IMG/VR virus record: IMGVR_UViG_3300025118_000086
Location: 1-30,699 of that record
From: a virus
DNA length: 30,699 nucleotides
Reading direction: 5' to 3' (one strand)
This document shows, piece after piece, positions 14,567 to 18,565 of this stretch (the first letter of the stretch is position 1; each line of letters opens with the position of its first letter). The notes below the pieces were generated by a model that saw nothing but the letters and a program-made list of their open reading frames with translations, was not told the DNA's origin and made no database searches. Both the position numbers and the translations under genes were made by a program.

Positions 14567-16072
14567 CTAATTAATCCAGAGGTCTGATTCGTTGTAACCT
14601 TCCCCCCATAGGTCTTTATCGTAACTCTCCTGGTGCTGTTCATCAAGTAGTCGTTGCTCGATCTTGTCTTCAAGTTGCTTGTAGTACTCCTCAGAGCCCG
14701 GAATGACGCCCGGAACCTTCGCTTCATACAAATAGTGCCTACATTCAACCCAGGCATAGAGGGCGGCATCGGATAAGTGGTTGTCATATCTACGATCTTC
14801 GGCAGTTCCTGCCCGGTTAAATTGCAACTTATCCCACTCCTCAAGCAGCTCCATCCCCCTCCGAACCTTCAAAACACTGCCTTTTAAGTCCGAATTCATC
14901 ATTTTGATGAGACCAACTTTATCCCCTGTTTTTCTTGCTGGTTTTACCGGCAGCCTGCTTCTTTCCTTGAATGTCTCAAGAACCATTCGAGACGCACCAC
15001 CCCCGGTATCCATGACAATGGATGTGAAGTCATAGTCAGCCATGAATCTCTTGATTTTGTCCTCTACGTCAGAGGTGAGCATTTGCCTCTCCTTGTACTC
15101 GTCGACAAGATAGAGGTGTGGGTGGTCTGGAGACCAAGCAGCAACAACGAAAGCGGTAGCGTCATGATAACCAAGGTCGACTCCGAGAACGTATTCCCAG
15201 TCATTACTGTCGGGGGTCTTCTCAAACAGATTATGATCAGCGTAGGAATAGACGACCTCTTGATCATCGCGGACCCAGAGTCCCAGGTATTCTCGTTTGA
15301 AGGAAGCGTCGTTTGGGTCGAGGATCCCATTGTCGATATCCTGCTGGATAGCCCTCATTGCATGTCTCATGTGAGGGTTGTCTTTTACTGTCCACCTGTG
15401 AATTGAGAAGTTGTAAGCCCCTTTTTCAGTAATATCGTAGAAAAATCCAGAACATGCGCTGTTCGGGGTAGAGATCATAACCAGTGAGCCATCCCTATCG
15501 AGAAGGGCTGGGGTCAATACTTCGTTAACCAGCTCCTTCAAGTCGATATTGAAGAAAGCGGCTTCATCAAGAACAGCGAGAGAAAAGGCTGCACCACGGA
15601 GCTTATCCACATCGGAAGCATCGTTAGCGCCCGTGAATATAATCTGACTCGTGTTCTTAAGCGTGGCAATGAGGTCGGCGTTGTTAAACCTAATCCCAAG
15701 GCGGAATTTTTGATTGAGCTCTTTTAGGGATGTCCAAAGGATACGCTTAGCAGCTTCTCGGGTTCGTGCGATGTATACACAGGTAGATCCATCGCTCTCC
15801 ATCGCCTCCTGAACCAGGTAACGACCAGCAGCGTAACTCTTTCCGCTTCGACGGCTGCATATAGCCGCCTTTCTCTTGGAGTCGTCTTCGATAAAATCCA
15901 GCTGCTCCCGGAAGAGCATCTTGCGCAAGTTAAGGATATTACTCCTTCTGCTTCTTAGTTGAGCCTCGTTTGGCTTTTTCTTTCCGCCAAATCTGACGGC
16001 CATTGCCTCAAGAACCTCTCGATCGGTGAGGGTCATCTCAGGGAGAGCCCTGTCTTTCTTCTTACGAGGCAT
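14567..16072 (-). CDS. terL: Terminase large subunit
   Basis: 501 residues from the ATG at 16072, with GGTGGAG 6-10 nt upstream; an in-frame GTG four codons earlier is less likely. The ATPase domain has Walker A CSRRSGKS at 72-79, Walker B SLAVLDEAAF at 164-173 (Asp169, Glu170) and the coupling motif ISTPN at 200-204. The RNase H-like nuclease domain has acidic residues at Asp299 (GVDLGYHD), Asp355 (VMDTGGG) and Asp435 (LSDAALYA). This is the motor that packages DNA through the portal and cuts concatemers. It overlaps the upstream gene by 11 nt. All key residues are present, so it should be active. Confidence 0.95.
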   Translation of the reverse strand: MPRKKKDRALPEMTLTDREVLEAMAVRFGGKKKPNEAQLRSRRSNILNLRKMLFREQLDFIEDDSKRKAAICSRRSGKSYAAGRYLVQEAMESDGSTCVYIARTREAAKRILWTSLKELNQKFRLGIRFNNADLIATLKNTSQIIFTGANDASDVDKLRGAAFSLAVLDEAAFFNIDLKELVNEVLTPALLDRDGSLVMISTPNSACSGFFYDITEKGAYNFSIHRWTVKDNPHMRHAMRAIQQDIDNGILDPNDASFKREYLGLWVRDDQEVVYSYADHNLFEKTPDSNDWEYVLGVDLGYHDATAFVVAAWSPDHPHLYLVDEYKERQMLTSDVEDKIKRFMADYDFTSIVMDTGGGASRMVLETFKERSRLPVKPARKTGDKVGLIKMMNSDLKGSVLKVRRGMELLEEWDKLQFNRAGTAEDRRYDNHLSDAALYAWVECRHYLYEAKVPGVIPGSEEYYKQLEDKIEQRLLDEQHQESYDKDLWGEGYNESDLWIN

Positions 16073-16505
16073 AAGCGGCTCCACCTTCTTCGGGGTGAAG
16101 GATGGTGTAAATCACAGAGGGCAAAAGGCTCCCGATATACTTGGCGTTCCATTTGTCACGAGCGTCGAGCTGCTGCATGTGCCACGACCAGAAAGTACAG
16201 AAGATCGGAGAGTCATCTGGGTAGACATGACGCAGTAGGTCATTGGCAACACCATTCCTTCGGAAGTTCTTCTTCACGAAGATGTAGTGCAGCATGTTGG
16301 TGTCTTCGAGCTTCCCATGAGCAATCCATCCGATGATGTGGTTCGGGTCATCGTCTGGGCACCATATGGAGACAGTCTTCTCCTTGATTACATTATCTAT
16401 GAGGCAGCGCGTCATCTTGGTGACAGCCCGTGTGGGACACTTCACCGAGTGGAGCCATGAGTGGTACACAAAATCTTCGTCTAGTGGTCTAACTTCCCGA
16501 ATCAT
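16062..16505 (-). CDS. GNAT-like acetyltransferase-fold protein
   Basis: 147 residues. The centre has a GNAT motif A pattern: strand MLHYIFVKKNF followed by RRNGVANDLLRHV (residues 71-94). The R-R-N-G-V-A turn is where acetyl-CoA pyrophosphate normally binds. It is preceded by two strands (TVSIWCP and HIIGWIAHG). Such proteins are commonly found near the packaging genes of podoviruses, where they are often annotated as acetyltransferase or internal virion protein without a known substrate. It overlaps the next gene and the large terminase at its ends, so it is part of the same transcript. Catalytic competence is not certain. Confidence 0.7.
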   Translation of the reverse strand: MIREVRPLDEDFVYHSWLHSVKCPTRAVTKMTRCLIDNVIKEKTVSIWCPDDDPNHIIGWIAHGKLEDTNMLHYIFVKKNFRRNGVANDLLRHVYPDDSPIFCTFWSWHMQQLDARDKWNAKYIGSLLPSVIYTILHPEEGGAAYAS

Positions 16506-16827
16506 CTAACTTCGGCCTTTCTCTAATAATCTTGCGGCTAATCTTGAGAAGGTCGTCATTGGACATTGAAGCTATTGCGTCGGACTTTAAGACGGCCTCT
16601 ATCTCGAGTAATTTCTTCATCCCTGAGTAACAGGAGTCTAATTTCTGAAAGTCTTTGTTGTCGAGCTCGTTACCAGAGTCCACCTTGTCCTTGAGGGCGG
16701 AAATCTGGCTCTCGGTGATGTAGAAGAGGTCAGCCCAAAGCTTGTGCTTGTCTTTAGTGTAGAGAACTTTGACCTTCTGGCCCTGGACATTGTAGGCACC
16801 TGCGGCGCGCTTAGTTGCTTCAGACAT
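16489..16827 (-). CDS. Hypothetical protein, candidate small terminase
   Basis: 112 residues; first gene of the leftward operon, with GGGAGGAAAGA right before the ATG. The sequence is helical and charged. KVKVLYTKDKHKLWADLFYITESQISALKDKV is followed by a Lys/Asp/Leu-rich helix (LDSCYSGMKKLLEIEAVL) and a C-terminal helix (DDLLKISRKIIRERPKL). Size, helicity and position ahead of the large terminase fit a small terminase subunit, which would recognise the packaging site. No clear helix-turn-helix is visible, so this is only a candidate. Confidence 0.6.
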   Translation of the reverse strand: MSEATKRAAGAYNVQGQKVKVLYTKDKHKLWADLFYITESQISALKDKVDSGNELDNKDFQKLDSCYSGMKKLLEIEAVLKSDAIASMSNDDLLKISRKIIRERPKLDDSGS

Positions 16828-17344
16828 TCTTTCCTCCCGGCTACAGTAAAAAGTCTAAACGATCGATTGCACTGAGAGCAAGAGGTCGGTACCATGGAAG
16901 GACCCCACAAGCTACGGAGTAGACGCCAGTGACCACCCCGGTCACCCTTTAGGCGGACGCGCAACCCCTGTCGCCCTTCGGCTTTCAATGATTATCTAGA
17001 CATTCAAGGCTTACCCAAGTTGGATATCGGCAGGGGCAACGGACGTAGCTTCCCGTTGATGCACAATACAAGTAACCAACCTTGCGGGCTTTTTCTAGAT
17101 TAATCCGAGGGGGGGTGCTTCAATAGGGATCTGCTGATAACGCACTGCGCTACACTGAAAACGGGGAAAAATTCATGGAGGGTGTTTGGCTTGCCTGGAC
17201 TAGAATTCAAAGAGGGGGTACCCCCATCGAGATATGAGCCACAGGCGTAAGAAAAGCACTATCTCACACCAGCCCACCGTCAGCTATCACTCTCACCATA
17301 CACTCGGCACGCTACGGTTTCTAACACACCACCGGTATAATACA
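16828..17344. other. Divergent non-coding region with hairpins; candidate packaging or promoter region
   Basis: No credible gene lies here. Visible structure includes a hairpin at 16924-16955 (GTGACC/GGTCAC inside CGCC/GGCG), a longer pairing CCCCTG 16965-16970 with CAGGGG 17031-17036, a CCCG/CGGG pairing followed by five T at about 17053-17092 (a weak rightward terminator at best), a run of seven G at 17109-17115, and a perfect 12-bp palindrome GGGGGTACCCCC at 17214-17225. The leftward promoter for the morphogenesis operon must be in or near this segment, but I see no convincing -35/-10 pair. Being next to the possible small terminase, the region could also hold the packaging site. Confidence 0.5.
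17313..17341 (+). promoter_or_regulatory. Candidate promoter for the large RNA / downstream operon
   Basis: A perfect sigma-70 -10 hexamer TATAAT sits at 17336-17341 on the plus strand, upstream of the structured RNA region. No good -35 box lies 15-18 bp upstream (17313-17318 reads TACGGT), and no TGn extension is present. Transcription would start near 17348. One such hexamer in a region this size can arise by chance. Confidence 0.3.
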
Positions 17345-17385
17345 CCCTTACACCACCTAACTCACTGGAATCACGTAGCTCACAT

Positions 17386-17432
17386 GTACAGATCTAGTAC
17401 AAAAAGTGTACCCTATCGCTCCTTCCTGGTAC
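17386..17432. repeat. GTAC sites phased by about one helical turn
   Basis: Self-complementary GTAC tetramers begin at 17386, 17397, 17408 and 17429, that is 11, 11 and 21 bp apart. They would lie on one face of the helix. GTAC also recurs through the rest of the region (for example 17551, 17692 and within 17922-18003). This could be a protein-binding array near the start of the putative RNA, or a by-product of hairpin structure (TGTAC/GTACA can pair). Confidence 0.4.
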
Positions 17433-17519
17433 CAAACCGTGCACCGACGAGCCCAAAACAGCACTCGTTAGCACGTAATACCTCACGCCCCACCCCCCTA
17501 GAGAACCCGCAACTCTCGT

Positions 17520-17582
17520 GCAGGACTACCGACACTCCCGCAGCCATGGAGTACCATGTCCGCGACAGCTTACGAGTCCTGC
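17520..17582 (+). repeat. Structured RNA motif, copy C
   Basis: The helix GCAGGACT (17520-17527) pairs perfectly with AGTCCTGC (17575-17582). The internal loop is ACCGAC (17528-17533) opposite TTACG (17570-17574). The inner arm is longer than in the other copies and contains CATGG-AGTA-CCATG (17545-17558). It shares the loop sequences and ACT/AGT closing pairs with copies A and B while the flanking helix differs. Confidence 0.65.
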
Positions 17583-17663
17583 GCTCGGTCACACGTTCTC
17601 TCCACCGCAAGTCCGAGAACCTTGGCGACACTCTTCGCTGATACCTAGAGCACTAGTCGATAG

Positions 17664-17715
17664 GCCCGCTCAATGGACTAACGACGCCTGAGTACAGGCT
17701 TACGAGTCCATGGGC
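17664..17715 (+). repeat. Structured RNA motif, copy A
   Basis: The outer pairs are GCCC (17664-17667)/GGGC (17712-17715). The main helix is ATGGACT (17673-17679)/AGTCCAT (17705-17711). The internal loop is AACGAC (17680-17685) opposite TTACG (17700-17704), and the inner hairpin is GCCTG-AGTA-CAGGC (17686-17699). CTAACGACGCC at 17678-17688 is exactly complementary to part of the leader of the gene at 21168. Confidence 0.7.
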
Positions 17716-17762
17716 AGCTACATGTGTCTCTCCGGGATGCTATCAAGCTGAATGACCCGCTA

Positions 17763-17811
17763 GAATCAGAGCCACTAACGACGCCTCCGGCTTACGAGTG
17801 GCCCTAGATTC
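17763..17811 (+). repeat. Structured RNA motif, copy B
   Basis: The outer pairs are GAATC (17763-17767)/GATTC (17807-17811). The main helix is GCCACT (17771-17776)/AGTGGC (17797-17802). The internal loop AACGAC (17777-17782) opposite TTACG (17792-17796) is identical to copy A, with a short inner hairpin GCC-TCC-GGC. Relative to copy A, the two pairs next to ACT/AGT change from GG/CC to CC/GG, a covariation that supports base pairing. Confidence 0.7.
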
Positions 17812-17845
17812 GCTACCGACTCAGAGCATCACCTCGGAATCGGAC

Positions 17846-17885
17846 GTAGGGTTGTGACAGGAAGGTCTAGTCCTACACTCCTGTG
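17846..17885 (+). promoter_or_regulatory. Pseudoknot-like element containing an anti-Shine-Dalgarno sequence
   Basis: GTAGG (17846-17850) can pair with CCTAC (17872-17876), and ACAGG (17857-17861) with CCTGT (17880-17884). The order of the four strands is that of an H-type pseudoknot. The same 3' strand lies within ACTCCTGTG (17877-17885), which is perfectly complementary to CACAGGAGT (18090-18098), the ribosome binding site of the next gene. The two pairings exclude each other, the layout of an on/off switch. An identical site precedes the gene at 20449. This is a proposal from complementarity only. Confidence 0.4.
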
Positions 17886-18103
17886 CTATATCTATCTCTC
17901 TCTCGAATTAAGCCAACGTAACGGTACCAACCGTCGTCGGGCGCTCAAGGACGGACGAGTACGCCCGCCAGCCCCTACGAATAGACACAAAAGTACGGAG
18001 TACCGGACTTTCGCATCGATTCTTGCGTCTGGTTTACAATCCTTGACCGTCCTCCTCCGTCTGGATTTCTACGCCCTTACTTAATTCAACACAGGAGTCC
18101 ATC

Positions 18104-18565
18104 GTGACCAAGCAGACAACATCACCAAAGCAGCTCATCATCATCACCACCGGAGACTCAGGCGAGCCAATGACACAGGCCCTCAACTCCATCAAGGCGA
18201 AGTACCCAGAAGCACGCATCTACCTCATCTCCTCCAACCAGACCAAGGCAGACCGTGCGGCTCATGACTGGGCATTCAGCAACGCAGACCGCTACCACAG
18301 CATCTCGCCCTGTACCAAGCCACTCAGTGGGGGCAACGCCGGCCTGGTCATGCAATCAAGTCGAGTCAAAAGAACCAAGGACGTTCTGCGCGTCATCATC
18401 GCGGCCCCAGGCCAAGAAGGGCGCACTAAGGACCTCATCGAGCGGGCCAACGAAATGACCAAGCCCGGTAGCTTCAAGGTGTGGCGTCTCAAGCCAGTAG
18501 CCAAGTTGCCCGACGCAGCAGCCCGTGCCATCGTCGGTGGCTCAGCCGCATGCCTCGTGAAGTAG
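18104..18565 (+). CDS. Unknown Rossmann-like protein downstream of the large RNA
   Basis: 153 residues starting with GTG at 18104, with AGGAG (18093-18097) 6 nt before it. The N-terminus has a strand-loop-helix (QLIIITTGDSGEPMTQALNSI, residues 10-30) and a second strand (ARIYLISSNQT). Later come SGGNAGLVMQSS and VLRVIIAAPGQEGRTKDLI, a pattern compatible with a small alpha/beta Rossmann-like fold. The TGD and GGNAG pieces faintly recall SLOG-type nucleotide-binding proteins, but the order and spacing do not allow that claim. The C-terminus ends hydrophobic (AIVGGSAACLVK). Codons are strongly biased to C/G endings, unlike the replication genes, suggesting high expression. It forms an operon with the next gene. 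Confidence 0.75.
   Translation: MTKQTTSPKQLIIITTGDSGEPMTQALNSIKAKYPEARIYLISSNQTKADRAAHDWAFSNADRYHSISPCTKPLSGGNAGLVMQSSRVKRTKDVLRVIIAAPGQEGRTKDLIERANEMTKPGSFKVWRLKPVAKLPDAAARAIVGGSAACLVK

Follow-up and report, generated by a model that had tools for sequence, protein, structure and literature searches.

What does a virus genome encode between its main gene blocks, where no credible gene is to be found? The question is raised by the IMG/VR virus record IMGVR_UViG_3300025118_000086, analysed here over 30,699 bases (the window, meaning this whole stretch of DNA). Its genes form two divergent blocks, a leftward one with a capsid protein, a portal and TerL among its genes, and a rightward one with an exonuclease, a Sak4-like protein and a DnaC-like loader. 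Credible genes are absent from positions 16828-18103 between the blocks, where a first-pass annotation, made without database searches, had placed a large structured non-coding RNA with a three-copy motif at 17345-18089. By comparison with the close relatives of this phage, all of which are uncultured contigs (L numbers below), we consider it probable that the locus encodes two convergent structured RNAs, RNA1 on the plus strand and RNA2, which holds the three-copy motif, probably on the minus strand.

The three-copy motif and its conserved unit

The three copies, A, B and C, are present. Read on the plus strand they have the form ACU-A(C/A)CGAC-inner hairpin-UUACG-AGU; on the minus strand they are as follows.

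17520-17582, minus strand: module A, with outer helix GCAGGACU/AGUCCUGC, internal loop CGUAA opposite GUCGGU, and an inner arm ending in a gUACUc hairpin.
17673-17711, minus strand: module B, with outer helix AUGGACU/AGUCCAU, internal loop CGUAA opposite GUCGUU, and inner hairpin GCCUG-UACU-CAGGC.
17771-17802, minus strand: module C, with outer helix GCCACU/AGUGGC, the internal loop of the other copies, and an inner hairpin of three base pairs.

The inner arms vary in length, as had been claimed, and the outer helices do show compensatory changes, although the letters had been assigned out of map order: modules A and B have GG/CC, whereas C has CC/GG. One 10-mer occurs three times in the real sequence, and in 1,000 dinucleotide shuffles of 17345-18089 no 9-mer or 10-mer did so.

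The short open reading frames that overlap the gene-free region could suggest decayed coding DNA, and the repeats could be due to chance. However, substitutions between the window and L024 lack codon periodicity, and the indels between them (1, 2, 3, 13, 25 and 52 nucleotides (nt)) break the reading frame. With the high conservation and the compensated helices, decay or chance is refuted for practical purposes, and the earlier statement that no credible gene lies here stands.

Among viral contigs the full motif was found only in close relatives (L003/L030, L004, L005/L034 and L024/L031), always in the same place. The L003/L030 and L004 copies are near-identical, L024/L031 carry three module copies, and L005/L034 carry two before the contig ends. 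A looser descriptor run over the collected loci gave one additional, unconvincing match. A kink-turn reading of the module was weighed by eye and dropped.

The modules lie within a longer conserved unit, with the following parts.

17498-18089, probably minus strand: the RNA2 cassette, the conserved unit that holds the three-copy motif; its 5' end is near 18089-18049 and its 3' end near 17498, from the identity to L031, G-U and A-C counts and folding z-scores.
17945-18046, minus strand: the 5' junction domain, closed by helix P1, UCAAGGA (18046-18040) with UCCUUGA (17951-17945).
17978-18023, minus strand: the P3 hairpin, in which tandem U-G/G-U pairs are invariant and pairs of the stem covary.
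17953-17966, minus strand: an accessory hairpin, GGGCG-UACU-CGUCC, with the form GGGCG-UACU-CGCCC in L031.
18075-18089, minus strand: the TTGAATTAAGTAAGG box at the 5' edge of the cassette, also present in L031 and a candidate non-sigma70 promoter.

Over 562 aligned nt the unit is 89% identical between the window and L031, compared with 67% for TerL, 73% for RNA1, 45% for the gap to the left and 47% for the DNA flanking it to the right. The first-pass annotation had begun the RNA at 17345, but 17345-17484 belongs to the poorly conserved gap, and the unit starts at about 17498. Strong constraint alone would not explain such sharp edges; the simplest reading, strongly indicated by these identities, is that phages exchange the RNA2 unit as a cassette on which selection acts. 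The L031 cassette has extra whole hairpins relative to the window, and six of its hairpins, all within the cassette, carry one and the same loop, gUACUc on the minus strand; in 500 shuffles no tetraloop ever occurred more than three times.

The 5' junction domain recurs in five phage lineages (the window, L031/L024, L019/L053, L047 and L056) and the three-copy part in three; L019/L053, L047 and L056 have homologues of the right end of the unit without modules A-C. Judged from these alignments, the three-copy part is a lineage-specific 3' portion of a longer RNA, of about 0.55-0.65 kb, whose 5' domain is more widely conserved. RNA2 was seen in five lineages, and also in L005 by its modules. When its presence is mapped on a TerL tree three changes are required, at least two of which are forced by well-supported branches.

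The conservation and core fold of RNA2 are shown computationally, by comparison of sequences. P1 is UCAAGAA/UUCUUUA in L047, and another helix of the 5' domain, CCAG/CUGG, becomes CCAC/GUGG among lineages. A variable arm has unrelated sequences in different phages, yet it is paired in each phage that has it. In P3, 99.1% of the alignment cells are paired and four pairs have changed on both sides, as against 34-51% pairing in slid controls. A whole-core MAFFT alignment of RNA2 puts the 3' arms of P1 in the wrong place. The P3 pattern also matched two further viral contigs, L096 and L097, which were judged to be chance hits.

Other elements occur in some relatives. In L011 and L012 the RNA2 position, between RNA1 and the genes to the right, is taken by a different repeated motif, with two copies of GCGTCGGCGGAACC in paired arms. 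Near the right-hand genes of L006, L010 and L012 there is a common element, GAGGTTGGCCA(A/T)GACA...GTGTCGGACAA, which seems to form a hairpin interrupted by an internal loop and is possibly a third RNA in lineages without RNA2.

Strand and ends of RNA2

The first-pass annotation had read the motif on the plus strand. The minus strand is the most likely one for RNA2, and is strongly indicated, because the variable base pairs give G-U on the minus strand and A-C mismatches on the plus strand. When the listed RNA2 helices are read on the minus strand, the cells comprise 246 Watson-Crick pairs, 16 G-U, one A-C and five others; ten of the 16 G-U cells are one invariant tandem in P3, and the variable sites alone favour the minus strand about five to one. 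The P3 hairpin on the minus strand has 11 G-U and no A-C, and a strand-neutral count, with helices predicted on both strands, gave 18 to 6 for minus. The same approach applied to RNA1 gave plus, by 160 to 7 (plus-fold pairs). Compared with shuffled sequences, the minus strand also folded better in five of six segments of 150 nt (z from -2.6 to -6.2), and it did so over the whole module.

If the hairpins acted as single-stranded DNA, as an origin or priming site for a replication protein, and were exchanged as a cassette, tolerance of G-T pairs on one strand would leave the same signal. The element is indeed non-coding, made of repeated hairpins and swapped as a unit, and the phage carries DnaC-like and Sak4-like genes. 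On the other hand, the adjoining RNA1 is clearly promoter-driven, L053 has a terminator with a U run for RNA2, and the minimum of the GC skew lies near 21 kb and not at the locus. We regard a DNA element as improbable.

The ends of RNA2 are marked less evenly. L053 has a terminator-like hairpin and a U run behind RNA2 on the minus strand, and a TTGAA box stands 41 nt upstream of P1 in the window, L031, L047 and L056. At the 5' edge no sigma70-type promoter common to the five RNA2 lineages was found.

Several observations weigh against two convergent RNAs. Neither strand showed a clear sigma70 promoter for RNA2, and neither the window nor L031 showed a terminator at the RNA2 3' end. Modules A-C are known from three lineages only and their own covariation is thin, and in the two-sequence comparison of the window with L024 alone, double changes barely exceed those in column shuffles. 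The one segment of the six that folds better on the plus strand spans modules B and C. Finally, RNA2 was not found with the P3 descriptor in nine other lineages with enough sequence.

Of the first-pass annotation, the large structured non-coding RNA itself is upheld by homologous cassettes, by compensatory changes and by the lack of Rfam relatives; homologous regions with the same helices were looked for in related phages and found, the whole cassette in L031/L024 and the 5' domain in further lineages. Three points differ: the strand, which is most likely the opposite one; the place of the three-copy part, which belongs to a longer RNA; and a second and better conserved RNA, immediately to the left, which had been missed.

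RNA1 and its surroundings

This second RNA has the following features.

16867-16895, plus strand: the RNA1 promoter, TTGCAC-17 nt-TACCAT.
16902-17225 (approximate), plus strand: RNA1, a structured RNA of about 320 nt, universal in the phage clade, defined by a profile (nhmmer) family of about 24 distinct sequences and by pair counts.
16994-17000, plus strand: loop K1, AUCUAGA, which pairs with K2.
17094-17100, plus strand: loop K2, UCUAGAU, the partner of K1 in a kissing-loop contact, either inside one molecule or between two.

The strand, promoter and fold of RNA1 are likewise shown computationally from the aligned relatives. In about 24 distinct relatives the RNA aligns always upstream of, and divergent from, a gene for a 112-amino-acid protein, a GNAT-like gene and TerL. 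Across seven helices in an alignment of 18 sequences, 92.6% of the cells are paired (slid controls, 33-43%), 27 of 37 pairs have changed on both sides, and 89 cells are double-changed against 25 +/- 4 after shuffling. The two loops change together: AUCUAGA/UCUAGAU in the window becomes ACCUAA/UUAGGU in L024, ACAUAG/CUAUGU in L049 and AUGCAG/CUGCAU in L019, and a swap test that needs no alignment, run with nine divergent sequences, gave p = 0.0002. The alignment-based pair count is the safer figure, because the helix arms of the K1/K2 analysis were chosen by eye.

The promoter pattern TTGnnn-17 nt-TAnnnT occurs once in each of the 23 true RNA1 members tested, at a distance of 11 to 27 nt upstream of the conserved ACGGAGUAGACG. 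An RNA1-pattern match in L054 has no such promoter and was set down to chance, as were all 38 matches in 84,980 species genomes, none of which extended into RNA1. In L017 (159-585) RNA1 has a hairpin insertion of about 80 nt (GUGUAGCAG...CUGCUAC), and RNA1 of L047 has an AU-rich hairpin insertion at the same site.

RNA1, perhaps together with the rest of the 1.2 kb on the plus strand, could be a 5' leader for the early operon that runs rightward, acting in cis on RNA polymerase like the put RNAs of HK022, with RNA2 as the matching leader of a leftward transcript. The start of RNA1 directly follows a conserved promoter of sigma70 type, the direction of reading is towards the early genes, and the right-hand genes have no better promoter in front of them. 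The promoter is presumably an early one, judging from the early-type genes to its right, and put lies just downstream of early promoters (PMC9378689). The likeness to put is one of position only: both are structured RNAs that immediately follow an early sigma70 promoter and share its strand. The put RNAs are about 70 nt long with two stem-loops (PMC9378689), whereas RNA1 has about 320 nt, eight or more helices, many conserved positions and a loop-loop pairing, and antitermination would be assigned to it by analogy. In addition, the distance from RNA1 to the next gene, and these genes themselves, vary widely, and the strand signal of RNA2 is opposite to the early operon. We consider the leader model unlikely but keep it, above all for RNA1, because between RNA1 and the early genes there is no clear plus-strand terminator or second promoter.

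The sequences around the two RNAs are less well defined. The gap at 17227-17484 has 34% C and 16% G on the plus strand, as expected of a Rho-utilisation site, a composition not seen in the L047 gap. Between the RNAs, at 17397-17411, there is an inverted repeat, GTACA-AAAAG-TGTAC, possibly an operator; related sequences (ACAAAA..GTACC) occur in the gaps of L005, L011 and L022. To the left, a GNAT-like acetyltransferase gene (16062-16505) always lies, in the clade, between TerL and the conserved 112-amino-acid gene (16489-16827). The product of the latter was modelled (predicted local distance difference test score, 73) and no confident structural match was found, and the name small terminase is therefore a positional label only. 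To the right, the first gene (18104-18565) has a weak SLOG/YspA-like match (Pfam YAcAr, below the cut-off), and a TTGACC considered as a plus-strand promoter before it has no -10 element at the correct spacing. L031 and L047 have another first gene, of 209-210 amino acids, with APLDQSR common to both.

Known phage RNAs and possible roles

GOLLD, a large phage-encoded non-coding RNA with one universally conserved part, one variable part and kissing loops, and ROOL, an elaborate phage RNA of unknown function with pseudoknots and kissing loops (PMC12286853), are the obvious candidates for relatives. The locus resembles both in being a large and elaborate phage-encoded RNA locus with kissing loops, and GOLLD also in joining a conserved to a variable region. 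Rfam searches of the window and its relatives, at gathering and at permissive thresholds (E-values up to 5-10), gave nothing beyond chance-level matches for RNA1 or RNA2; the first-pass annotation had not recognised the RNA either. GOLLD often has transfer RNA (tRNA) genes nearby, and the window has none; RNA2 is also shorter and of another architecture. A further trait of GOLLD is assembly into a homo-oligomeric RNA cage. From ROOL the locus differs by the lack of a sequence or structure match and by its position between terminase and early genes, not beside tRNAs. Like the packaging RNA of phi29, which that phage requires to package its genome, RNA1 is encoded beside packaging genes, and its covarying loop pair could act between molecules, but it is longer, folds differently and has no Rfam match (E-values up to 10); as for the terminase, TerL is of an ordinary kind (PHROG 2), and a small subunit is possible. 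Membership in any of these families is contradicted by the sequence-structure search and is very improbable. No similarity to the region was found in cultured phage records, the best cultured-phage relatives of TerL are less than 30% identical to it, and in the open-access literature, to which the search was confined, no description of the locus was found.

On the preferred reading, RNA1 would be transcribed rightward from its sigma70-type promoter, and RNA2, running probably from about 18089 to 17498, would consist of the conserved 5' junction domain (P1-P3) followed by the three near-identical helix and internal-loop modules and several gUACUc hairpins. RNA2 may then act in trans as a modular scaffold, because repeated modules and repeated hairpins would imply repeated binding of one partner; each internal loop (CGUAA opposite GUCGKU) and each gUACUc hairpin would bind one copy of the same protein or RNA. 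Of the whole reading, docking is the part of which we are least sure, and we put it forward tentatively.

It is conceivable, though rather doubtful, that RNA1, promoter-driven, universal and with its loop-loop contact, forms together with the exchangeable RNA2 an RNA-based or RNA-protein assembly used in infection, in which phages swap the RNA2 slot. Equally speculative is the form that RNA2 would take in it, a conserved core to which copies of a single docking module and a single tetraloop are added interchangeably, a system unlike known ones.

Few large structured RNAs are known from phages, most of them without an assigned function, and the locus adds two families without an Rfam relative, of which RNA1 has deep covariation and a conserved promoter. 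As a cassette that would travel while the surrounding genes diverge, RNA2 allows selection on the RNA itself to be studied, and its repeated module is a small, defined piece that could serve as bait for the partner and for structure determination.
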